DNA of 64,000 nt from an uncultured Prevotella sp. (lineage in GTDB: Bacteria > Bacteroidota > Bacteroidia > Bacteroidales > Bacteroidaceae), in contig CAMKRS010000003.1 in NCBI GenBank assembly GCA_946415245.1, forward strand, positions 36,350 to 100,349, written 5' to 3'. Of this stretch, positions 468 through 13,874 are shown piece after piece. A program made the position numbers and the translations under genes. The notes beneath the pieces were generated by a model that was not told the DNA's origin, did not search any database, and saw nothing but the letters and a program-made list of their open reading frames with translations. Within the stretch, counting starts at the first letter, position 1. Every line of letters starts with the position of its first letter.

Positions 468-2177
468 ATGAACAGACTATCATTCTTTGGTAGTATGCTA
501 TTAGGTGCCTTCATCACCGTCGGATGTTCCGACGGTGATGATGCCGCTAATCCCACCACATGGGATATCGGCGAACCTACGACTACCGATTATCCAGAAG
601 ATTACTATGCCGGAGGTCTGCTCGGTACCACTGCCGAGAACTCTTCCACAGCTTTCAAACAGCCCTCGAAGGCGGTTGAAACCGCAGGCATGATGACGGC
701 CTTCAACGAAGGCGAGTATCTCTTTGAGAAAGACTACAACACCAACACCGATGGCGCTTTCCACGGACTGGGTCCTGTCTATGTGCGTCGCGGTTGTCTC
801 TATTGTCACCCAGGCTACGGTCACGGTGCCCGTCAGACAGACTACAAGGCCGATACCCATCGCAACGGTTATCTGCTCGTCATCTACGACAAGACCACCA
901 ATGCCTACATTCGTTCGGTGGCTGGTATGCCGCAGACGGGAGCCGTAAAACCTTTCAAGGCGCCTATCGACGAGAATCAGATCCGTATTGCGTGGAACAA
1001 CTATACTGACGAATGGGGCAATCAGTTCCCTGATGGTGAAACCTATTCACTCATCTATCCTGAAGTATCCATCCCCTACTCTGCCTACTATGCACCTGTG
1101 ATTGTGGCCCGTGGCGGTAGCGATGTAACACTGGATGAGGCTCAGTATAATAACGAGATTGGTGTATTGCTCGAATCCACCATCGGTATCTACGGCACAG
1201 GTCTGACGGATGCCATTCCCGATGAAGATATCACTGCGCAATGGAAGTCGGAGAGCGACTATTTCAACAGCATCGGCAAGACTGATGCCCTGAACCCTGT
1301 TATGTGGGATCAGACGACCGGCACTTGGAAGAGCTATTACAGCAATTCACTGCAGGGTGATGGCACAAAGTATGTGCGTCGCTATACCTATGCGATGTCG
1401 CGTGGTCCTATCCTCGATGCTGCTGGTGCCAACGCTATTTGGAACATCACCAATGTGACACGCTCCGATCGTCGTTATCACTACCTCGATCTTGCCGGCA
1501 TCTATTATGCCACAAAGTCATCACAGGATCCAGAGGTACAGGCAGGATTCACAGACTACATCAATCGCATCGATCCCACAGGTGCTCATCCCGAGTGGCA
1601 TACAGGCAACCTCGAGAAAGATATCTACACCTATCTCACCAGCAAACAACTGGATGCTGAGATGACTGATGCACAGTACAAGAACCTCATGATCTGGCAT
1701 CGTGGACTGGCTGTTCCTGCAGCCCGTAACACCACCACCGAGGACTTTAAGAAAGGCAAGGAACTTTTCTCGCAGATTGGCTGTGCCAATTGTCACCGTC
1801 CCTCGTGGCAGACGGGTGAGGATCATATTCAGGATCCCGCCAAGTTCTTTACCTCTGACAGTGATATGCCGCGCTATCCGCATCAGAAGATCTGGCCTTA
1901 CACCGACTTCGTACAGCACCGCTTGTGGATGAAGAACGACATCCGCACGGGTTGGTGTCGTACTACCCCGCTATGGGGACGTGGTCTCGCTGGCAAGACC
2001 GGCAGTGGTGTGGAGCGCTTGCACGACTGTCGTGCTCGTAATGTGTTGGAGGCCATCATGTGGCACGGGTGTAAGAACGAGGGCGGAACGAGCGATGCCT
2101 ACCAGACCGTTGTGAAGTTCCGCAACCTGACGAAGAAGGAACGCGAGCAATTGATTTACTTTATTGAATCCATTTAA
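468..2177 (+). CDS. Di-heme oxidoreductase / thiol oxidoreductase-like lipoprotein (DUF1111 family)
   Basis: Two CXXCH motifs (GCLYCHPG, GCANCHRP); lipobox TVGC followed by SDGDD. Confidence 0.8.
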   Translation: MNRLSFFGSMLLGAFITVGCSDGDDAANPTTWDIGEPTTTDYPEDYYAGGLLGTTAENSSTAFKQPSKAVETAGMMTAFNEGEYLFEKDYNTNTDGAFHGLGPVYVRRGCLYCHPGYGHGARQTDYKADTHRNGYLLVIYDKTTNAYIRSVAGMPQTGAVKPFKAPIDENQIRIAWNNYTDEWGNQFPDGETYSLIYPEVSIPYSAYYAPVIVARGGSDVTLDEAQYNNEIGVLLESTIGIYGTGLTDAIPDEDITAQWKSESDYFNSIGKTDALNPVMWDQTTGTWKSYYSNSLQGDGTKYVRRYTYAMSRGPILDAAGANAIWNITNVTRSDRRYHYLDLAGIYYATKSSQDPEVQAGFTDYINRIDPTGAHPEWHTGNLEKDIYTYLTSKQLDAEMTDAQYKNLMIWHRGLAVPAARNTTTEDFKKGKELFSQIGCANCHRPSWQTGEDHIQDPAKFFTSDSDMPRYPHQKIWPYTDFVQHRLWMKNDIRTGWCRTTPLWGRGLAGKTGSGVERLHDCRARNVLEAIMWHGCKNEGGTSDAYQTVVKFRNLTKKEREQLIYFIESI

Positions 2178-2226
2178 CGGCTATAGGTATTGCGTTTTTC
2201 GATTTAATTTCGTACCTTTGCAGCCG

Positions 2227-4308
2227 ATGAAATGGACAAAGATAACCGTCTGCTCCCTATACACGCTCATTGTAGTGTGTATAGGGTTTGCTACTGTCAT
2301 AGAAAAATACCGCGGCACCACGTTTGTCAGTGAGCATATCTATGGTGCTTGGTGGTTTTCTGCACTATGGGCAGTACTCACCATAGTGGCACTTGTCTAT
2401 ATCATCCAGCAACGGTTGTATAAGCGCCTGGCGGTGATGTTGCTCCACCTGTCGTTTGTGGTGATATTGGCAGGTGCACTCACCACACACCTCTTTGCCC
2501 GCAGAGGCATCGTCAGACTTAGGACTAATGTGCCAGAAATGATTTTCATCGATAAAGACAATAGGGTGGAACATTTGCCTTTCTCACTGACACTGAAGGA
2601 GTTTCGTATCATCAACTATCCTGGCACCGATGCGCCACTCGACTATCAGAGCATCGTCAAAAGTGGTAATGACGAGGTCGTCGTCTCTATGAACCACATC
2701 GGCAATATCGATGGCTACCGCCTGTTCCAGCAGAGCTACGACACCGATGGCGAGGGTGTGACACTGGGTATCAGCCATGATCCCTACGGTATCGCCATCA
2801 CCTACGTGGGCTATCTTTTACTATTGATAGGTATCATCGCCACCCTATTGTCGCGAAAGACCCAGATGCGCTCGCTTTATCGCAAAGCCATCGCGGTGAC
2901 AGTGCTTTTCTTCGGCATGAACACTGGCGCGGTAGCAAATTCTTGCGTCCCTTCGGTAGCAAGCGGCATAGCCGAGTCTTCACTCTTCACTCTTCACTCT
3001 TCACTTCCTGTCGTAGACGCAGACATCGCCCACCGCATGGGCACCATCCATGTGCTCTACAACAACCGCATCTGTCCGCTCAACACCGTCGCCACCGACT
3101 TCACCATGAAGCTTACGGGTAGTGCTTCGTGGAAAGGTTATTCTGCCGACGAGGTGTTTTTCAGTTGGATGATCTATTACATGCCGTGGGAGGAAGAGTT
3201 GCTCAAAAATAACCCCAAGCAGAAAGGTGCTGAGGAAAGGAAAGCTATCGTCGAGATGTTCTACAACGGACAGTTTACCAAAATATTCCCCTATCGTTTA
3301 GACGACGCCGTCAGTTGGTACTCGCCAGGCGGACAGGTATTACCGAGGGAGATTCCCGTCAAGGAACAGTTCTTCATCAAGCAGTCGATGGACTTTCTCA
3401 CTGAAGCCATCGTCACAGGACAGCGCGACCGTGCCTTTGAGATTATTGCGAAGATCAAACTCTTCCAACAAGACATGATCGGCGACGTCTTGCCCAGCAA
3501 GAGCAAAACCCAGGCAGAACTCTTCTTTAATAAGATGTACAGTCAGAAGTGGCCGGTATTCCTATCACTGACGCTCAGCCTGCTGCTGTGTATCGCTATG
3601 CTCTTTTGGCGGAAGCGAGTGATTCGCTATTCTCTTTTCACTTTTGCTTTCCTCCTCTTCGCTTACATCACTCTCTCGCTTGGCTTACGCTGGTGGCTTG
3701 GTGGTCATATCCCCGTGAGCAATGGCCCAGAGACTATGCTCTTCATGGCATGGGTGATGCTTTTGCTCACCATCCTGATACAAAAGAAATTCCCCATCAT
3801 CCTGGCTTTCGGACCACTCATAAGCTCTTTCTGTCTCTTGGTGGCTATGCTCGGCGGCAGCAGTTCTCAGCTTACACCTCTCATGCCTGTGTTGCAGTCG
3901 CCGTTGCTGTCCATCCACGTGATGACCGTCATGTGCGCCTACGCCCTCTTTGCCTTGCAGATGCTCTTAGGCATCTACGCCTTTGGGGCCCCCAACTCCA
4001 ACTTGGAGCGAATCACGGCTCTTTCGCAACTCTTGCTCTACCCAGCCGTTTTCCTGCTTACCATCGGTATCTTCCTTGGTGCTGTCTGGGCCAATGTATC
4101 GTGGGGAAACTACTGGTCGTGGGATCCTAAAGAGTCGTGGGCACTCATCACCCTCATGGTCTATGCTGTCCCACTCCACAAGTCGTCTATCAGCCGCTTC
4201 CGCAGCACCCGCTTTTACCACAGCTACATGATCTGTGCCTTCCTCGCCGTCATCATCACCTATTTCGGTGTGAATTACCTGTTGGGAGGAATGCACAGTT
4301 ATGCCTGA
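2227..4308 (+). CDS. Fused ResB-CcsA cytochrome c biogenesis protein; start set at the internal ATG
   Basis: N-terminal ResB-like TM region; C-terminal WANVSWGNYWSWDPKESW tryptophan-rich CcsA signature; TACCTTTG promoter ends 6 nt before ATG 2227. Confidence 0.85.
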   Translation: MKWTKITVCSLYTLIVVCIGFATVIEKYRGTTFVSEHIYGAWWFSALWAVLTIVALVYIIQQRLYKRLAVMLLHLSFVVILAGALTTHLFARRGIVRLRTNVPEMIFIDKDNRVEHLPFSLTLKEFRIINYPGTDAPLDYQSIVKSGNDEVVVSMNHIGNIDGYRLFQQSYDTDGEGVTLGISHDPYGIAITYVGYLLLLIGIIATLLSRKTQMRSLYRKAIAVTVLFFGMNTGAVANSCVPSVASGIAESSLFTLHSSLPVVDADIAHRMGTIHVLYNNRICPLNTVATDFTMKLTGSASWKGYSADEVFFSWMIYYMPWEEELLKNNPKQKGAEERKAIVEMFYNGQFTKIFPYRLDDAVSWYSPGGQVLPREIPVKEQFFIKQSMDFLTEAIVTGQRDRAFEIIAKIKLFQQDMIGDVLPSKSKTQAELFFNKMYSQKWPVFLSLTLSLLLCIAMLFWRKRVIRYSLFTFAFLLFAYITLSLGLRWWLGGHIPVSNGPETMLFMAWVMLLLTILIQKKFPIILAFGPLISSFCLLVAMLGGSSSQLTPLMPVLQSPLLSIHVMTVMCAYALFALQMLLGIYAFGAPNSNLERITALSQLLLYPAVFLLTIGIFLGAVWANVSWGNYWSWDPKESWALITLMVYAVPLHKSSISRFRSTRFYHSYMICAFLAVIITYFGVNYLLGGMHSYA

Positions 4309-4312
4309 TTTC

Positions 4313-4960
4313 TTAAATATAAAATTCTGAGGAATCTACCAATCCTGCTCGTAAAGCGTATTTGATGACCTCGTGAGCCGTATTGACACCGAGTTTGCGG
4401 AAGATGTTCTTGCGGTGAGTAGTGATGGTGTGGACACTCGAGAAGCGCTCGTTGGCAATCTCTTTGGTGGTCTTGCCCTGAGCGATAGCACGCACGATCT
4501 CCGTCTCCGTCTCCGTCAGGATGCTGGGGTTCTCTTCATCTTCCTGTTGCTGGTTGATGATCACTTCCAACGCCCGCTGACTGATATGACGGTTGTGACG
4601 GCTGACAGCATCGAGGGCATCGCGGATATCCTTCAGCGGACCATCCTTGAACACGATGCTGAACTGGTGGGATGAATAGACCACGCGGCGCAGGAACTGC
4701 GGAGTGAGTTCATCGCTGATGAGAATCCACTCTGACAGTGCAAAACGCTCAGCGACAATCAGCAACTGATCCTCGTCGGCGAAGTCGAACAGCGTGTAGT
4801 CGAGCAGCACGACAGCATTCTCGTGTTCCTTCAACAGCTGAACGAGTCCGGCCTTGTCGCTAGCCTTGTAGATGTCGTTTTCACCCTTCTGGCGAATCAG
4901 ACTCTCCAGCGCGAACCGCGTCAGTTCCTGATTGTCTGCTAAGATATATTTTCCCATCAT
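4313..4960 (-). CDS. LuxR-family response regulator (orphan)
   Basis: Receiver-like N-terminus (VVLLDYTLF) and C-terminal LuxR HTH (LTETETEIVRAIAQGKTTKEIANERFSSVHTITTHRKNIFRKLGV). Confidence 0.85.
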   Translation of the reverse strand: MMGKYILADNQELTRFALESLIRQKGENDIYKASDKAGLVQLLKEHENAVVLLDYTLFDFADEDQLLIVAERFALSEWILISDELTPQFLRRVVYSSHQFSIVFKDGPLKDIRDALDAVSRHNRHISQRALEVIINQQQEDEENPSILTETETEIVRAIAQGKTTKEIANERFSSVHTITTHRKNIFRKLGVNTAHEVIKYALRAGLVDSSEFYI

Positions 4961-4994
4961 TTACCTATTTGCGTGCAAAGGTACAAACTTTTTT

Positions 4995-6281
4995 TTAAAT
5001 TTTGTCGAGTGCCTGCGACAAATCATCAATGATGTCGTCGATATGCTCTGTACCGATACTCAGACGGATGGTCGACGGTGTGATGTGCTGCTCGGCAAGT
5101 TCCTCAGGCGAGAGCTGTGAGTGGGTGGTGGTGTAAGGATGGATCACCAGACTTTTCACATCGGCCACATTGGCCAGCAACGAGAAGATCTGCAAGGCAT
5201 CGATGAACTTCCAGGCCTCTTCCTGTCCACCCTTGATCTCGAAGGTGAAGATCGAGGCACCACCGTTGGGGAAATACTTCTGATACAACTTGTGGTCGTG
5301 ATGACTCTCGAGGGCCGGATGGTTCACCTTGGCCACCTTCGGATGGTTGGCGAGAAAATCGACGACCTTCAGGGCATTCTCCACATGACGCTCTACACGC
5401 AGACTCAATGTCTCAACACCCTGCAAGAGGATGAAGGCATTGAAGGGCGAGATAGCAGCACCGGTATCACGCAGGATGACGGCACGGATGCGGGTGACGT
5501 AAGCGGCTGCACCTACTGCATCAGCAAAGACGATACCATGATACGAGGGATCGGGCTTAGAGAGCGTGGGGAACTTGTCGTTCTGTTTCCAATCGAACTT
5601 ACCACCATCGACGATGACACCACCGAGGCTTGAACCGTGACCACCCAGGAACTTCGTTGCCGAATGCACCACAATGTCAGCTCCGTGCTCCAACGGACGA
5701 ATCAGATACGGTGTACCAAACGTGTTGTCGACGATAAACGGAATACCGTGCTTGTGGGCCACAGCTGCCACACCTTCGAGGTCGAGCACGTCAGAGTTGG
5801 GGTTGCCGAAAGTCTCGGCATATACTACTTTTGTGTTGGGTTGGATAGCAGCTTCGAGGGCCTCGAGGTCGTTCACATTGATAATCGTATTCGTGATGCC
5901 CTGAGTAGCCAGCGTGTGGGTAATCAGGTTGTATGAACCACCATAGAGGTTATCAGCAGCCACGATATGATCGCCATTCTGTACGATGTTCTGCAGCGCA
6001 TAGGTGATAGCAGCAGCACCAGAGGCAACTGCCAATCCGGCTACACCACCCTCGAGGGCAGCAACGCGATCCTCGAACACACCCTGAGTCGAATTGGTCA
6101 GACGACCATAGATATTACCTGCATCGCGAAGACCGAAACGGTCGGCTGCGTGCTGAGAGTTGTGGAACACATACGACGTGGTCTGATAGATGGGCACTGC
6201 GCGAGCGTCAGTTGCGGGGTCTGCCTGTTCCTGGCCTACATGAAGCTGTAAAGTCTCAAACTTGTAATTCTTTGTACTCAT
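4995..6281 (-). CDS. metY: O-acetylhomoserine aminocarboxypropyltransferase/cysteine synthase
   Basis: Cys/Met metabolism PLP-enzyme signature, VVHSATKFLGGHGSSLGGVIVDGG. Confidence 0.85.
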   Translation of the reverse strand: MSTKNYKFETLQLHVGQEQADPATDARAVPIYQTTSYVFHNSQHAADRFGLRDAGNIYGRLTNSTQGVFEDRVAALEGGVAGLAVASGAAAITYALQNIVQNGDHIVAADNLYGGSYNLITHTLATQGITNTIINVNDLEALEAAIQPNTKVVYAETFGNPNSDVLDLEGVAAVAHKHGIPFIVDNTFGTPYLIRPLEHGADIVVHSATKFLGGHGSSLGGVIVDGGKFDWKQNDKFPTLSKPDPSYHGIVFADAVGAAAYVTRIRAVILRDTGAAISPFNAFILLQGVETLSLRVERHVENALKVVDFLANHPKVAKVNHPALESHHDHKLYQKYFPNGGASIFTFEIKGGQEEAWKFIDALQIFSLLANVADVKSLVIHPYTTTHSQLSPEELAEQHITPSTIRLSIGTEHIDDIIDDLSQALDKI

Positions 6282-6290
6282 AACCTTATC

Positions 6291-6400
6291 CTTTCTTAAT
6301 TTTTAATTGTTAATACTGTTTCTATTCCCTTTTGGTTTACGCCGCTTTCCTGATTGACAGGAAAAGCTCAAATGTCTTTTCGACGGTGCAAAGGTACGAA
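6291..6400 (-). promoter_or_regulatory. metY promoter and 5' leader with a strong hairpin
   Basis: Minus strand: GTACCTTTG promoter, then GCTTTTCCTG-TCAAT-CAGGAAAGC hairpin, then GGCGTAAACCAAAAGGG. Confidence 0.45.
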
Positions 6401-6524
6401 CTTTAGAAATATCTTCCAAATTTCTTGCAGAATTCAGAAAATATCGCTATATTTGCAGCCGAGAAAGAAAATCTTTCCATACAGGCCCCTTTTGAGCGCC
6501 TCAAACAGAATAAAAATCTAAATT

Positions 6525-6989
6525 ATGGCGGAAATCCTCGACGAAACCGACCTGCAGATACTGAAAACGCTGCAAAAAAACGCGAAATTGACCACAAAAG
6601 AGCTGGCCGATGCCGTTCATCTGACCCCAACACCCGTCTTTGAGCGTCAAAAACGACTTGAGAAGAAAGGCTATATTAAGAAGTATGTGGCAATCCTCGA
6701 TCCAGAGATGCTGGGTCAAGGTCTGCAAGTGTTCTGCAAAGTGAAACTCAAGCAGATCAACCACGAGATAGCCGACGCATTCAACCGTCGTATCCAGCGC
6801 ATACCCGAAGTCACCGAGTGCTATAACACCTCGGGCGCCTACGACTACTTATTAAAGGTACGTGCACGCGATATGAAACAATATCAGGAGTTTGTGCTCA
6901 ACAAACTCGGCGAGATAGAGAGTCTGGCCTCTATCGAGAGTACCTTCGTGATGAGCGAACTGAAACAGAATTACGGTATCAACATCTAA
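6525..6989 (+). CDS. Lrp/AsnC family transcriptional regulator
   Basis: N-terminal HTH (LDETDLQILKTLQKNAKLTTKELADAVHLTPTPVFERQKRLEKKGYI) and RAM-like domain. Confidence 0.92.
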   Translation: MAEILDETDLQILKTLQKNAKLTTKELADAVHLTPTPVFERQKRLEKKGYIKKYVAILDPEMLGQGLQVFCKVKLKQINHEIADAFNRRIQRIPEVTECYNTSGAYDYLLKVRARDMKQYQEFVLNKLGEIESLASIESTFVMSELKQNYGINI

Positions 6990-7014
6990 CAGAAATCATA
7001 AAAAATAAGACTAT

Positions 7015-7740
7015 ATGAAAAGAATTCTTATCGCCCTCTTTGCAGCCGTCATCGCTGCTGTAAATGTCAACGCTCAGTTTAGGAGCACCTATTTCACCGC
7101 TGACGAGATGCCCAATGGTGTCGTCTTCCTGCCATCACCGCCCGACACCACATCGATACTGTTCATCAGCGATTACGCCCAATATATGTGGGGTAAGACC
7201 ATCCGCAACACAGAACGCGGACAAGAAGCCATCGACCATGTGGTGACGTCAGTATCTGAAATGGCGGCCCTTTTCAGCAAACCCTTTGGTATGACCATCT
7301 CAAGAGAGGCAACGCCCGCTATCTACAAGATGCTGTTGAAGGCGATTCCCACCCTACGTCTGAGTGCTGTCCATCCCAAGGAGACCTATATGCGCAAGCG
7401 ACCCTATGTCAGGATGAACGAGACAACACCTGTTCCTCAGGAAGAAGAGGAACTGCGCAATTCCGGCTCCTACCCTTCCGGACATGCCATCCGAGGTTGG
7501 GGAATGGCTCTGTTGCTGGCAGAAATCAATCCTGCAGCACAAGATGCCTTGTTGAAATTGGGTTATGAATGGGGAGAGAGCCGCGTCATCCTCGGCTATC
7601 ACTGGCAGACGGATATCGATGCCGCCATCGCTCTGGCCTCAGCCAGCTATGCCCGCCTGCACACCAGCCAAGAGTTTCTCGACGATATGGCCAAAGCCCG
7701 CGAGGAATATGCCTGCCTGAGTAAAAACCAGACGCGCTAA
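7015..7740 (+). CDS. Class A non-specific acid phosphatase / PAP2 family, exported
   Basis: Signal peptide; KRPYVR...GSYPSGHA...SRVILGYHWQTDIDA PAP2 motifs. Confidence 0.85.
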   Translation: MKRILIALFAAVIAAVNVNAQFRSTYFTADEMPNGVVFLPSPPDTTSILFISDYAQYMWGKTIRNTERGQEAIDHVVTSVSEMAALFSKPFGMTISREATPAIYKMLLKAIPTLRLSAVHPKETYMRKRPYVRMNETTPVPQEEEELRNSGSYPSGHAIRGWGMALLLAEINPAAQDALLKLGYEWGESRVILGYHWQTDIDAAIALASASYARLHTSQEFLDDMAKAREEYACLSKNQTR

Positions 7741-7862
7741 TCCCCGTTTTTTCAAATGTGGTGCGGCGCTTCAACTTGTCATTGCAACAATACTGATAAA
7801 CAAAAAAACTTTTTTCATATACCTTATTTTGATATTGTTTTTTTGTATCAAATGGGGCGTTT

Positions 7863-10040
7863 CTATTTCTCGCACAGGAAGTATTCCGACAGACCGTTCA
7901 CCACGCGATGCCGGAAGCTGAAGCGATAGTTGTTTATCGCCCTACCCAGTTTGTTCGATGACATCTTCTCGGCATCGAAATAGGCATATTTTGAGGCGAA
8001 GAGAGTGAGAATCTCTGAAGTTCCCCACCAACGGCCCTCGCCATCCTTAGGTTTGCGGAAAGTCTCTGCAATCATCTCCTCCAGCGGAACGGTACGCTGA
8101 TAAGGTTCGTTTTCCTTCATCAATTGGGTTATCTCGTCGTCTTCCAACCAGTAACGCTCCCCGTTGACTACCATCTGAAGCACTTGGGCGAAGAGCTGCG
8201 AGTGGTTGATATTATCGGTGAAATCAATGTTCTTTCCATTGGGAATGCCCACACAGACGAACCTTCTGGAGCCTGTGGGGTCAACCAACGGTTGCTTCTG
8301 ATTGGTAGTACCAATAAAAGAGGTATAACGACGGTATTGCTTGATGGTCTTGCCGTATGGCGGACGGAACTTGACATCACTCGACGACAGGAGATACTTC
8401 AGCACAATCTGCTGCGAATTGGTGGTCTTGTCGAACTCATCGATGTTGATGAGGGCAAAGGAGGTAAGGGCGATGTTCAGGTCGAACTCGTTCTTGAAGT
8501 TCAGCTTGTCATTATAGTAGTCGCGCAGTTCCTCAGGCAGCAGGATCTTGCAGAAACGAGTCTTTCCGCAACCTTGCCGACCTATCAGAAGTGGCGTTAA
8601 CGCATTGCCAGTCAACTGCTTATCACTCTCGCGCCACTGTGCCACCATACCCATCAGCCAATAGCGCAGATATTTCTCCCAATGCGGCTGGTCGGTGGGC
8701 ACACGGGCTGCAAGGTCTTTGATATAGTCGTGACCATCCCAAGTCGGGAGGTTCTTCAACCAAGTATTCACAGGGTCATACTGCTCGATGCGGGTGGAGT
8801 CGATAAAACGGTTCACGTCCTGATCCCACGACTTCAGTCCCTGTTCGCGAGCCTGAATGGTCATATCATTGCGCACCTCCTCCGTTAATGGCTTAAATGT
8901 CTGATCCTCAGAGTACTTATAGCGATACTCTGCCACACCCGTCATCAGGTTCTTGCGCATGTCGAAGTTGGCATTCAGAAACATCTCCGTGCGCATCGTC
9001 TGCAACGTCTCGTCAGGCACGCTCTTCAGTGGCTTCACCTTGTGTTTTTTCAGGTAGTCGGCTTGCAGACTGACGTCGTAGACCGATGAAAACACGTTTT
9101 TCACCAGTATGGGATCGGTGTTGAGGATTGGGTGTTCGAGGGTCAATCCCTGTGCGTGGGCCAATGGGATGCCTTGGTCCAGACAGAGACTGGCGATGCG
9201 CATCAGCATTTGCATCTGGCGGTCCTCGTCTGATACGTCTTCCAGCTTGAAATAGTCACCCAGCACCTGTTTCACGATGAAGAGCCAGTTGAGATGATAG
9301 GTACGCGTGATGGTGCGACCAGGCATCAGCATGTCGCTCTCCCAGGATATCCTGGCTGGTTCGGGCTGGTCATGCTTCTCCGTATCAGCCTTGAAAGGTC
9401 GGGCATCGGGGTTGAAGTACATCTCGGGGTCGGCACTCATATAGACGGTGCGCTCCAGCGTGGGCTCGAGATACTCGATGTCGAAGCCAAACTGGTTCTG
9501 GTAGGCTCTGCGAGCCGTCTCGTACAGGTTCTTATGAAACTGTCGCATCTCGTCTTCCTTCGTGGGCAACTCCTTCCCCTCAAACATCTCGCCTCGACAT
9601 ACGATCTTCACTGACTTTCCTGATCCGCCCAAGAATGCCATCACCGTCTCGTCCAGCCTCGCAGCCTGGTTCCTGACAACAACGGCATCTTCGTAAGTTT
9701 TCAGTCCGTTCACCTCGACCACCACCAGTCCGTTGTACTTCAGACCTTTCTGCATCTCCTTGTAGTTCATGCATTCTACAGCGAAGAGGATTCGTGGCAG
9801 GTTCACTGTATGCTGCTGGTCGTCGATGATGATCTGTCCGTTGTTCATTCGCTGCGGTTTCAGGAACTGATAGTTCAGGCGTACGTTGAACACCTTGCTT
9901 TCATCCGGTCCCTTGCGGATCATGTCTGCGAGTTCCGACAATTCTAAACGCTTGATGACTTCTTTCTTGCGCGAAACTTTCAAATAACTGATTTTCATAT
10001 CTGTTTTCTTGGTTTTTTGTTCTATATCCTTGTTGTTCAC
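7863..10040 (-). CDS. VirE-like protein: BT4734-type N-terminal domain plus VirE/SF3-like P-loop NTPase
   Basis: Walker A LIGRQGCGKTRF, Walker B-like FALINIDEFDK, N-terminal domain typical of Bacteroidales VirE_N proteins. Confidence 0.82.
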   Translation of the reverse strand: MNNKDIEQKTKKTDMKISYLKVSRKKEVIKRLELSELADMIRKGPDESKVFNVRLNYQFLKPQRMNNGQIIIDDQQHTVNLPRILFAVECMNYKEMQKGLKYNGLVVVEVNGLKTYEDAVVVRNQAARLDETVMAFLGGSGKSVKIVCRGEMFEGKELPTKEDEMRQFHKNLYETARRAYQNQFGFDIEYLEPTLERTVYMSADPEMYFNPDARPFKADTEKHDQPEPARISWESDMLMPGRTITRTYHLNWLFIVKQVLGDYFKLEDVSDEDRQMQMLMRIASLCLDQGIPLAHAQGLTLEHPILNTDPILVKNVFSSVYDVSLQADYLKKHKVKPLKSVPDETLQTMRTEMFLNANFDMRKNLMTGVAEYRYKYSEDQTFKPLTEEVRNDMTIQAREQGLKSWDQDVNRFIDSTRIEQYDPVNTWLKNLPTWDGHDYIKDLAARVPTDQPHWEKYLRYWLMGMVAQWRESDKQLTGNALTPLLIGRQGCGKTRFCKILLPEELRDYYNDKLNFKNEFDLNIALTSFALINIDEFDKTTNSQQIVLKYLLSSSDVKFRPPYGKTIKQYRRYTSFIGTTNQKQPLVDPTGSRRFVCVGIPNGKNIDFTDNINHSQLFAQVLQMVVNGERYWLEDDEITQLMKENEPYQRTVPLEEMIAETFRKPKDGEGRWWGTSEILTLFASKYAYFDAEKMSSNKLGRAINNYRFSFRHRVVNGLSEYFLCEK

Positions 10041-10314
10041 TTTCGGACTGCAAATATACTAAAAATCTGGCATATTTCCCAAATTTTCCAAGAGAATTGT
10101 TTCGTTTTTCATGCTTAATCCTACCAAAACTTCGAATTTTTCTTTATAAATCGAGTATTTCGCATCATTTATTCCACTACTTTAATCCTACTAATTCTCT
10201 ACTAATTCTCTACATTATTCCTATTTATTTTTTCACTATATCATAGTTGTTCCCTGCCTAGCCCGCAAGTTTCCTAAGCCCTTCTTGCAACTTTTCCGTC
10301 TAATCCTCGCTCAT

Positions 10315-10398
10315 AAATTCTCTAGAGAATTCAACCATTAACCCTAATCTCTCATTTGTTTTCCCCTAAGGGAACACTCAAATTCTCTAGAGAATTCA
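10315..10398. repeat. Two identical 19-bp copies (AAATTCTCTAGAGAATTCA), each with a 16-bp perfect palindrome, 65 bp apart
   Basis: Read directly at 10315-10333 and 10380-10398. Confidence 0.9.
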
Positions 10399-10454
10399 TT
10401 AACTACCTTTCGTCTGAAATCTTGCAAGCCCATATCTTCATCTCTGTGAGTACC

Positions 10455-10528
10455 CTTATCGGCAATTAATAGCCACTTATCACCAATTAAGAGCTCCTTA
10501 TCTGGCAATAATGTGTACTTATTGCAGG
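10455..10528. repeat. Four direct repeats with exact 21-bp period (CTTATC..CAATTAA.....)
   Basis: CTTATC/T at 10455, 10476, 10497, 10518. Confidence 0.85.
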
Positions 10529-10698
10529 TGTTTTGCAGCCAAAATGTGGGCTTTTGTAGAAATAATGTAGGGATATAGTAGGGTATTAGTAGGATTTTGG
10601 AAGGAATAATATGCGATATAAACATTCTAATAACCAATATGTTATTTGCATTTTAGTAGGATTAAATAGTAATAGATTATATCTCTGAAGTATATTTT

Positions 10699-11877
10699 TT
10701 ACCGCGGATTGAGGTTGAATCTTAATCCGAAGCTGATGGAGGGTGCCAAGGGATGCTCTTTGTAATAATGTTCGAGGTTGGAACCATCGTCGAAATAATA
10801 GCCAAGAGATGGCTCCAGGTAGACGCCGAGTTGCGGAGTAAATGAATATTCTGCTCCTGCTGCAGCATTGAGAGACCACTGCCAGGGCTTTTCAATATCA
10901 ACCCCATCAGAACTCTTATAGTCGAATGACGCATTGATACATTTCTCGAGCATGGCACTTCCTGAGAGATACAAGCGGAAATGACCAGAAGACCACAATT
11001 GCCAGACCATGCCAATAGGTATGCCTAAATAATGCAGCTTCTGATTGTAGTTTATATTGTAGAGGGGTATGCTGCATTCTGAATAGAGATAAGTATAGCT
11101 GATTCCGCTTAGCAGAGATAGCCGGTCGTTAAGCTGGTAATGCACACTGAGGCCGAAACGTAAAGGCAGACGATGCTTCCAGACGAATTCTGTCTGGGCG
11201 TTTGAAAACTGGCTGGTGATACCATAAAAAGCGTAATCTATGGAATTAACGTTTTTATAGTACAGAAGATTTGTATTAACAGAGTTGTTGGCTGCAAGCA
11301 GTCCACCAGATGCGGTCAGGCCTAAAGACCATCTGTCGGATGTCTCATTGCGTTTTGGCGATGGTTCGGATGACGGCAGTTGATAAGTCCTAGGATCATC
11401 CACCGGCTTCTTCGGCTGAGGTTCTGTCACAGGTTCCTCGCTATCTGACTCCTGGAGGACATCTTTATTTAGGTCATCATCAGATTCAGGCTCTGGCTCA
11501 GGCGCAGAAGGCTCCAGATCACAAGGGGTCTGACACTTTGTGAGGTTGTCCTCTTTCGACACCTTATGATTAATAGATGCGAGAGCCAGCTTATCATCCA
11601 CTTTATCTTCTGATGCAGGTGTATCAGGTTTTTCTGGAGCGATCATCTCACTTTTCACTGTGAGCTCCTTCGTTTCGTTGTTGTTATTGAGCTGGTAGAC
11701 GGCAAAGAATCCGGCAACCGCAAGTAAGGCGGCAGCAGCAGCATAGTACCAACGCCTATTGGTACTGTGATCTCTCACGTCCAACTCTTTACAAATGTCT
11801 TCCCAGAGACCTTCAGGGGGAGCCACCTTGTGACCCTCGAGCTTTCGTCGCAATTGTTCTTCCCAACTTCCTTTCAT
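10699..11877 (-). CDS. Putative dual-membrane-spanning anti-sigma factor: cytoplasmic N-term, one TM, acidic/Pro linker, OM beta-barrel
   Basis: Overlaps ECF sigma gene stop by 1 nt; TM YYAAAAALLAVAGFFAVYQL; C-terminal barrel strands ending SISFGLRFNLNPR. Confidence 0.72.
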   Translation of the reverse strand: MKGSWEEQLRRKLEGHKVAPPEGLWEDICKELDVRDHSTNRRWYYAAAAALLAVAGFFAVYQLNNNNETKELTVKSEMIAPEKPDTPASEDKVDDKLALASINHKVSKEDNLTKCQTPCDLEPSAPEPEPESDDDLNKDVLQESDSEEPVTEPQPKKPVDDPRTYQLPSSEPSPKRNETSDRWSLGLTASGGLLAANNSVNTNLLYYKNVNSIDYAFYGITSQFSNAQTEFVWKHRLPLRFGLSVHYQLNDRLSLLSGISYTYLYSECSIPLYNINYNQKLHYLGIPIGMVWQLWSSGHFRLYLSGSAMLEKCINASFDYKSSDGVDIEKPWQWSLNAAAGAEYSFTPQLGVYLEPSLGYYFDDGSNLEHYYKEHPLAPSISFGLRFNLNPR

Positions 11878-12416
11878 TACTTACTGTCTATGAGTTCGTT
11901 TATTCTCTTTGCCAATTCTCTCTTTGCATAATAGAGCTGTGATGCTGATGTACTCTCAGTGATTCCCAGCATCGCTGCTATCTTTTTATGAGGGTAGCCT
12001 TCGAAGACATAAAGGTTTATCACCGTTCTGTAACCGTCGGGCAGTTCACTGATCAGCCTGTGCAGCTCGTCATTGGATATCTTCTCTGCTTGTGGCTCAT
12101 CGTCGTCGGAAATCTGAATGGCCACAGGGTCTTGCTCTATGAAAAACAGCTTCTTCCGTTTTCTCAGGAAGCTGAGCGCCTCGTTCACCACCACTTTGAT
12201 CATCCAGGCCCTCAGGCTCTCCTCATTCCGATAGTCGATGGTAGGAATAGCGGTGAATATCTTTACGAGACTGTTCTGCAACACATCCTTTGCATCGTTC
12301 TTCGAAGGCACATACCGGTAGCAGACCGATGACAACTCCTCTATGTACATCTTGTAGAGTTGGTTCATCGCCCTCTGGTCTTTCTGCCGTATGCGCTCAA
12401 CGAGTTCTCTGACCAT
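11877..12416 (-). CDS. ECF-type RNA polymerase sigma-70 factor
   Basis: Region 2 (DAKDVLQNSLVKIFTAI) and region 4 (LPDGYRTVINLYVFEGYPHKKIAAMLGITESTSASQLYYAKREL). Confidence 0.92.
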   Translation of the reverse strand: MVRELVERIRQKDQRAMNQLYKMYIEELSSVCYRYVPSKNDAKDVLQNSLVKIFTAIPTIDYRNEESLRAWMIKVVVNEALSFLRKRKKLFFIEQDPVAIQISDDDEPQAEKISNDELHRLISELPDGYRTVINLYVFEGYPHKKIAAMLGITESTSASQLYYAKRELAKRINELIDSK

Positions 12417-12563
12417 TCTTTTCCTTATGGCTTTACTTTAATAATCCAAAATTACGCAAATCTTGTATGGAATCTCGATATTTTTAGATTCTTTAACACA
12501 ATCTGATACAAGATTCACCACTTTTTCCCATTATATATGCAGAAACATTTAACAAGACAAATT

Positions 12564-13874
12564 ATGAAGAAACATCTTTTTTCAGTAGCAGCAATGGCTG
12601 TCGGTAGCCTGCTGATGATGTCGTGCTCATCTTCTGACATAGAAGAAGATCTTGAGCCAAAATCAATTGTGGACATGTACTCTGAGTCACAGACTATCCA
12701 GCTAACTCAGGCTCAGCAGGTGTTTGTCAACGACAACAACACCTTTACGCTGAATTTCCTGAAGGCTGTCAACGAGACAGACCGCTCAGGAAAGAGTTTT
12801 ATCTATTCACCCCTTAGCATCACATACGTATTAGGGATGGTAAACGATGCTGCAACAGGTCAGACAGAACAGGAACTGGAGCAGGCACTTGGTTTCCACC
12901 AAGGAGGCATCAATGCGGTGAACGATTACTGCAAGAATCTGATTGATAATCTGCCAAAGGTGGACAATAAGGTGACACTCAACATCGCCAATGCCATCTT
13001 CCTAAACAAGAACTACACTCTGAAACCACAGTTCACTCAGGACATGCAGACCTACTACAATGCAAAAGCCGAAGCCCTCGACTTTGGGGCTCCTGAGACG
13101 CTCGACCACATCAATGGATGGGCCAAGGAGAAGACCAACGGTATGATTCCAAACATCCTTGATGAGATCGATCCATATATGGTATCATACTTGCTTAACG
13201 CTATCTATTTCAAGGCAGACTGGGCTTCGAAGTTCGACAAGAACAATACTAAGACAGAATCTTTCACCACAGACAACGGAAAGACGGAATTGCCGCTGAT
13301 GCACCAGAACGTGCTTATCAACTATGTAAACAATGGCGTCTATTCAGCCATCAAGATGCCTTATGGCAACGGCTATTGGGACATGACCGTTATGCTGCCT
13401 GAGGATGGCAAGACCACAGACGACATCATCAGCCAACTGTCATCAAGAGGTTTCAACGATGTGGAAGGCTTCTGCGGAACAATGGGGGGTGTTTTTAAAC
13501 CTTACGAAGTCGATCTGAAGTTGCCGCGCTATGAGACAGAATCAGATACTAAAGATGTGCCAACAGGACTTACCGGCCTCTTACAGAAAATGGGGATTAA
13601 CAGGATTTTTGATGGTAGCCTTGCAGAGATTCCCAATATGGCCAACGCGCATGTGTATATCAGTATGATGCGTCAGAAGGCAAAGATCAAGGTCAACGAG
13701 GAAGGCTCTGAGGCTGCTGCCGTCACTGTCGCAGGAATAACGTTTACTTCCTACATTAATGAGCCAGTTCAATATCCCAAGGCCGTGTTCCATGCCAATC
13801 ATCCCTTCGTCTATGTCATCCGCGAAGCATCCTCGGGTGTGATCCTCTTCGTCGGAAAGTTTACCGGTAAGTGA
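12564..13874 (+). CDS. Serpin family protein, lipoprotein
   Basis: FIYSPLSITYVLGMVNDAATGQTEQEL, hinge EEGSEAAAVT, NHPFVYVIREASSGVILFVGKF; lipobox LMMSC. Confidence 0.93.
   Translation: MKKHLFSVAAMAVGSLLMMSCSSSDIEEDLEPKSIVDMYSESQTIQLTQAQQVFVNDNNTFTLNFLKAVNETDRSGKSFIYSPLSITYVLGMVNDAATGQTEQELEQALGFHQGGINAVNDYCKNLIDNLPKVDNKVTLNIANAIFLNKNYTLKPQFTQDMQTYYNAKAEALDFGAPETLDHINGWAKEKTNGMIPNILDEIDPYMVSYLLNAIYFKADWASKFDKNNTKTESFTTDNGKTELPLMHQNVLINYVNNGVYSAIKMPYGNGYWDMTVMLPEDGKTTDDIISQLSSRGFNDVEGFCGTMGGVFKPYEVDLKLPRYETESDTKDVPTGLTGLLQKMGINRIFDGSLAEIPNMANAHVYISMMRQKAKIKVNEEGSEAAAVTVAGITFTSYINEPVQYPKAVFHANHPFVYVIREASSGVILFVGKFTGK

Follow-up and report, generated by a model that had tools for sequence, protein, structure and literature searches.

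Among described systems, those closest to the locus analyzed here are the replication modules of PICIs and SaPIs. PICI origins consist of an AT-rich region flanked by two sets of iterons (PMC6092414), and the SaPI Rep proteins, a class described in PMC7581432, recognize their own iterons through a C-terminal domain (PMC7581432). Here we present the analysis of a window of 64,000 nucleotides from an uncultured Prevotella sp. (contig CAMKRS010000003.1, positions 36,350 to 100,349), in which a region of about 550 bp lies upstream of a VirE/BT4734-type gene. Our preferred interpretation, held with moderate confidence, is that this region represents a mirrored iteron-type origin/operator of a PriRep-like VirE protein, located in a selfish, multicopy, and partly non-autonomous element.

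A sequence-only reading of the window had described an imperfect inverted repeat in this region, and the repeat is real and as described. The best separated inverted repeats scored 22 and 14, whereas 100 dinucleotide shuffles never gave more than 11, which rules out a chance repeat; shuffled sequences yielded no such repeats, and homologous VirE loci within the genus carry them. The motif TAATCCTAC occurs at 10116 and 10183 and its counterpart GTAGGATT at 10589 and 10656, the two copies on either side being 67 bp apart, and two identical perfect palindromes, AATTCTCTAGAGAATT, lie inside the repeat at 10316-10331 and 10381-10396. The motifs that had been read as single elements are present, but are actually the outer and first inner members of 11-bp iteron arrays. 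From left to right, an outer iteron (TAATCCTAC, 10116-10124, plus strand), the positional equivalent of the outer doublets at other loci, is followed by an AT-rich spacer (10126-10182, 74% AT, belonging to the class of 65-67 bp start to start) and by the left inner iteron array (10183-10221, plus strand), with CTAC at 10188, 10199, and 10210, in 11-bp steps. The 81-bp core (10316-10396), recognized by the recurrence of its spacing and by its interior dyad, contains the two palindromes 65 bp apart, start to start. It sits within an extended dyad (10284-10428) whose 48-nt arms are 75% complementary and which, as single-stranded DNA, folds with a z-score of -5.0. On the opposite side are the right inner iteron array (10556-10597, minus strand), with GTAG at 10556, 10567, 10578, and 10589, a second AT-rich spacer (10600-10655, 77% AT), and the right outer iteron (GTAGGATTA, 10656-10664, minus strand). 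Toward the VirE gene, TAGTATATTTGCAG at 10048-10061 on the minus strand reads as a probable promoter -7 element of the Bacteroidota type.

Other parts of the initial description required revision once additional loci were compared. A 21-bp array does exist in the window, as three imperfect repeats (CTTATC...CAATTAA, plus strand) at approximately 10454-10522, but none was seen at the other loci read by eye. The center near 10390, which had been associated with the second palindrome, is replaced by a core axis that falls halfway between the two palindromes, near 10356; because arm distances vary among loci, the near-coincidence looks fortuitous. The constant part is likewise not the TAATCCTAC arms, but the palindrome pair.

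Across loci, this constant part is an 81-bp core in which a dyad-symmetric interior lies between two AATTCTCNNGAGAATT palindromes with an exact spacing of 65 bp. Of 115 distinct raw matches, 93 show this spacing (76-bp span), a count made before 11 loci were set aside as unrelated, and the pair is kept in further loci although most other sequence differs. The self-complementarity of the core interior is 0.39 in the exact register, compared with 0.21-0.29 in other registers and 0.33 when halves are swapped between cores. VirE-linked loci present, in order, an outer iteron or doublet, an AT-rich spacer, inner 11-bp iterons, the core, and then the mirror image. Spacer lengths cluster at 54-56 bp (26 cases) and 65-67 bp (13 cases), that is, 5 or 6 times 11, and spacers average 74% AT versus 57% beside the core.

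The adjacent gene (7863-9998, minus strand; 711 aa from its ATG) had been assigned VirE_N and P-loop domains, and both assignments hold above the Pfam cut-offs (BT4734-like_N, 1.8e-37; VapE-like, 9.8e-35), placing the protein in the BT4734-like VirE family. Its domain order is a PrimPol-like N-terminal domain, a VapE/SF3 helicase, and a winged-helix-like C-terminus. PADLOC identified PrimPol (5.4e-29) and returned only PrimPol and RT-associated VirE models, and a known defense system was rejected. The protein matches PriRep1 (structure 7pds), a self-loading initiator of the SaPI type, both in sequence (E = 1.7e-8) and as the top fold match of its AlphaFold model (E = 1.2e-8), a model of moderate quality (pLDDT 72, pTM 0.41). 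The alignment shows conservation of the Walker A and B motifs and of the arginine motif GSRR. PrimPol catalysis is defined by the AEP acidic dyad and the motif II histidine; neither was found in VirE, which has EVN and SxK where these motifs would be expected. The primase residues look lost and the helicase motifs intact, and primer synthesis would need the host because the PrimPol catalytic residues are not conserved. In the model, the helix and strand order of residues 652-723 would suit a winged helix.

Iteron sequence goes with VirE clade. When iteron types, assigned from automated 7-mers and grouped manually, were placed on the VirE tree, they required 8 changes, the minimum, compared with an average of 21.6 in shuffles. 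Co-inheritance of neighboring DNA alone could explain this agreement; copies of the element without a gene fit such an explanation less easily. As a stronger test, we had predicted beforehand that a VirE gene with matching iterons would be present in genomes with many gene-free copies. The prediction held in both genomes: in G034, gene-free copies carry GTCACCC and one VirE gene (L238) has GTCACCC iterons and the core, and in G132, copies carry GTCAACC and the only VirE match (L227) has GTCAACC iterons and the core. Among the VirE loci scanned, L227 was the only one with a GTCAACC array. The layout differs in this second VirE subfamily: L238 is organized as array, core, VirE, and HU-HIG, and in both L227 and L237 VirE is flanked by arrays, including an added one 3' of the gene.

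To describe the genes next to the core, 11 loci among the raw matches, judged unrelated by eye, were set aside, which led to a set of 101 loci that is not an unbiased sample. Within it, a VirE/BT4734-type gene adjoins the core at 25 loci and an HU-HIG gene (Pfam PF18291, 2.3e-15) lies beside or just beyond it at 16, in every case reading away from the core; 12 loci have both genes, and gene-free copies constitute the majority. HU-HIG is a typical second partner gene and is present at a second locus of the source genome (L002). No HU-HIG match was found in the window, and its copy does not show the complete VirE/HU-HIG form. A DNA search of the source genome also revealed a related stretch upstream of a VirE paralogue that is 69% identical.

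A pattern scan of 150 genomes of the genus found the core in 29, with up to 30 copies per genome dispersed between genes, and the reversed-pattern control gave no match. When 394 genomes of the order were scanned with a stricter pattern, the source genome was the only one to match, with only two others in that sample belonging to the genus; it was absent from the approximately 390 sampled genomes of the order outside the genus. Among the matches listed from named genomes, the structured ones are nearly all from Prevotella or Xylanibacter, many of them rumen MAGs, and named carriers include Xylanibacter ruminicola Ga6B6 and Prevotella ruminicola KHT3. Among annotated phages, a protein search detected no more than distant relatives of VirE, and a literature search covering few subscription papers found no paper describing the element. 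The scattered copies, many of them gene-free, may represent an unrecognized family of selfish replicon-like elements in rumen Prevotella.

The surroundings of the element were also compared. Against L024 of genome G025, DNA identity is 98-100% over most of window positions 8600-11412, drops to approximately 75% at the VirE 3' end (7863-8100), and is then lost, a pattern that suggests recombination between VirE paralogues; this G000/G025 breakpoint revealed no element end. The OMP, ECF sigma, and serpin genes at 10699-13874 are syntenic in several relatives, in which no VirE gene adjoins them within the 1.5 kb read. A CRISPR-like array with a repeat near GTTCTATCTTCATTCCATTAGAATAAGGATTAAGAC was noticed in G000 (C2, 84536-92300) and at L253; in G025 a gene-free copy sits next to such an array. 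Several G025 copies (L026, L027, L028, L254, and L255) have beside them a second dispersed motif, approximately CATTCGTTACTTTTNGCCCATCATTTCATTACGTTTTA, and a promoter-like repeat, ATTTTGTATTTCTCTCNGTTTGCAGTAACTTTGCA, at approximately 2116-2153 of L200 has short matches in many relatives.

We propose that the 550-bp region would be the cognate target DNA of the neighboring VirE, an origin that could double as an operator. VirE would act as a PriRep-like AAA+/SF3 initiator helicase with a degenerate-looking primase domain, its putative winged-helix-like C-terminal domain binding the 11-bp iterons and helicase being loaded, on each side, at the AT-rich spacer that separates the inner array from the outer iteron. 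A second factor, possibly HU-HIG or VirE itself, would bind the palindrome pair, whose members are approximately six helical turns apart, and could bridge the two halves and repress divergent promoters. VirE, HU-HIG, and the origin-like DNA would together form a selfish multicopy element, and gene-free copies would be derivatives that have retained the DNA site and rely on a resident VirE whose own iterons match. The initiator-plus-origin unit anticipated by the sequence-only reading is strongly supported by the PriRep1 match, the iterons flanking AT-rich spacers, and the correspondence between iterons and VirE clade; satellite status, which that reading also offered, is not supported. Several points weigh against our interpretation. 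A cell with up to 30 active origins on its chromosome would be harmed unless these were under tight control, the eight flanking proteins scanned (468 to 12416) include neither an integrase nor a transposase, and the window copy lacks HU-HIG. The possible co-inheritance of iterons and VirE, the apparent loss of PrimPol catalytic residues, and the moderate quality of the protein model count on the same side. Going further, these could be selfish elements that lack a recombinase and spread through Prevotella chromosomes by replicating from mirrored iteron origins, using a PriRep-like initiator in trans and an HU-HIG partner, with gene-free copies parasitizing the parasite, although we regard this extension as rather doubtful.

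A purely regulatory region, in which iterons and palindromes are autorepression operators of divergent VirE and HU-HIG genes and gene-free copies are decayed remnants, is an unlikely but serious alternative. The sites sit between divergent promoters, and 15 of 34 HU-HIG genes have an extra palindrome copy 29-57 bp upstream of the start codon with 1-4 mismatches, while none of 170 shuffled controls fell below 4 mismatches; the suggestion of a complex operator in the first description is thus probably true in part. Some gene-free G025 copies also resemble, by eye, decayed gene-bearing ones, and L254 retains a broken piece of HU-HIG. An operator, however, would require neither a helically phased AT-rich spacer on each side nor up to 30 copies per genome, with gene-free copies as homogeneous as those of G132, which have approximately 280 bp in common with sharp limits. 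Moreover, the 57 gene-free copies with both flanks readable show no preference in the orientation of flanking genes (16/16/13/12), which rules out a role as operators of these neighbors and indicates that such copies do not act as their promoters or terminators.

The homogeneity of the G132 copies at many places would suit a MITE-like transposable element moved by some recombinase of the host or the element, with palindromes as recombinase sites and VirE and HU-HIG as passengers or regulators. At the tsf locus, a copy lies within the 565 bp that precede the neighboring gene in G132; the corresponding distance is 82-150 bp in four relatives that have no copy there, and 717 bp in a fifth relative. 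The central dinucleotide of the palindromes also varies among cores (TA, TC/GA, and others), as it does in serine-recombinase crossover sites. Nevertheless, we consider this explanation decidedly improbable: neither target-site duplications nor terminal inverted repeats were evident by eye in the G132 and G034 copies, whose relatives are too distant for base-exact junctions, no recombinase is linked to the element, and the match between iterons and resident VirE is left unexplained. Joined flanks of G025 copies, used to seek orthologous empty sites in the source genome, gave no useful match. That the functional product is a structured RNA, with a long hairpin formed by the palindromes, seems very improbable indeed. 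The core does fold far better than shuffles, but no Rfam match approached threshold, which rules out a known RNA family, single palindrome copies occur in HU-HIG promoter regions as expected of DNA operators, and the 11-bp phasing of the arrays points to double-stranded DNA.

VirE/BT4734 genes are multicopy in these genomes, and no paper found in our search, which covered few subscription papers, explains them; a cognate site with swappable iterons provides a testable role for them. Under our origin/operator interpretation, SaPI-like initiation modules would sit on chromosomes with dozens of possible trans-acting sites, which raises the question of how the cell tolerates so many origin-like sequences.

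Compared with the pri-rep-ori modules of PICIs and SaPIs, the Prevotella locus has the same combination of PrimPol and SF3/AAA+ initiator helicase as PriRep1 (7pds), two iteron sets flanking an AT-rich stretch, and iteron sequences that vary by allele. In contrast to those modules, the origin-like site lies 5' of VirE, in the window and at other core-linked loci, and not 3' of the initiator gene; it is duplicated as mirror images on either side of a palindromic core, is paired with HU-HIG, and exists in many gene-free chromosomal copies, with no integrase (among the eight proteins from 468 to 12416), terminase, or attachment site seen here. The BT4734/BF3469 (VirE_N) genes of Bacteroidales that have an HU gene nearby belong to the same protein family. 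Two Bacteroides VirE_N loci have an upstream 42-nt hairpin (L301) or TGACAATA repeats 11-13 bp apart (L302), but these loci and one from Parabacteroides lack the TTCTCNNGAGAA palindromes of the Prevotella element. Like MITEs and REP-type dispersed repeats, the element is short, intergenic, and multicopy, with relatives that bear genes; unlike them, no transposase parent was found and the linked gene is an initiator helicase. Finally, iteron plasmid origins likewise have direct repeats in helical phase next to an AT-rich segment and an initiator gene, but the element differs from them in its SF3 PriRep-type initiator, its mirrored arrays, and its multicopy presence on the chromosome.
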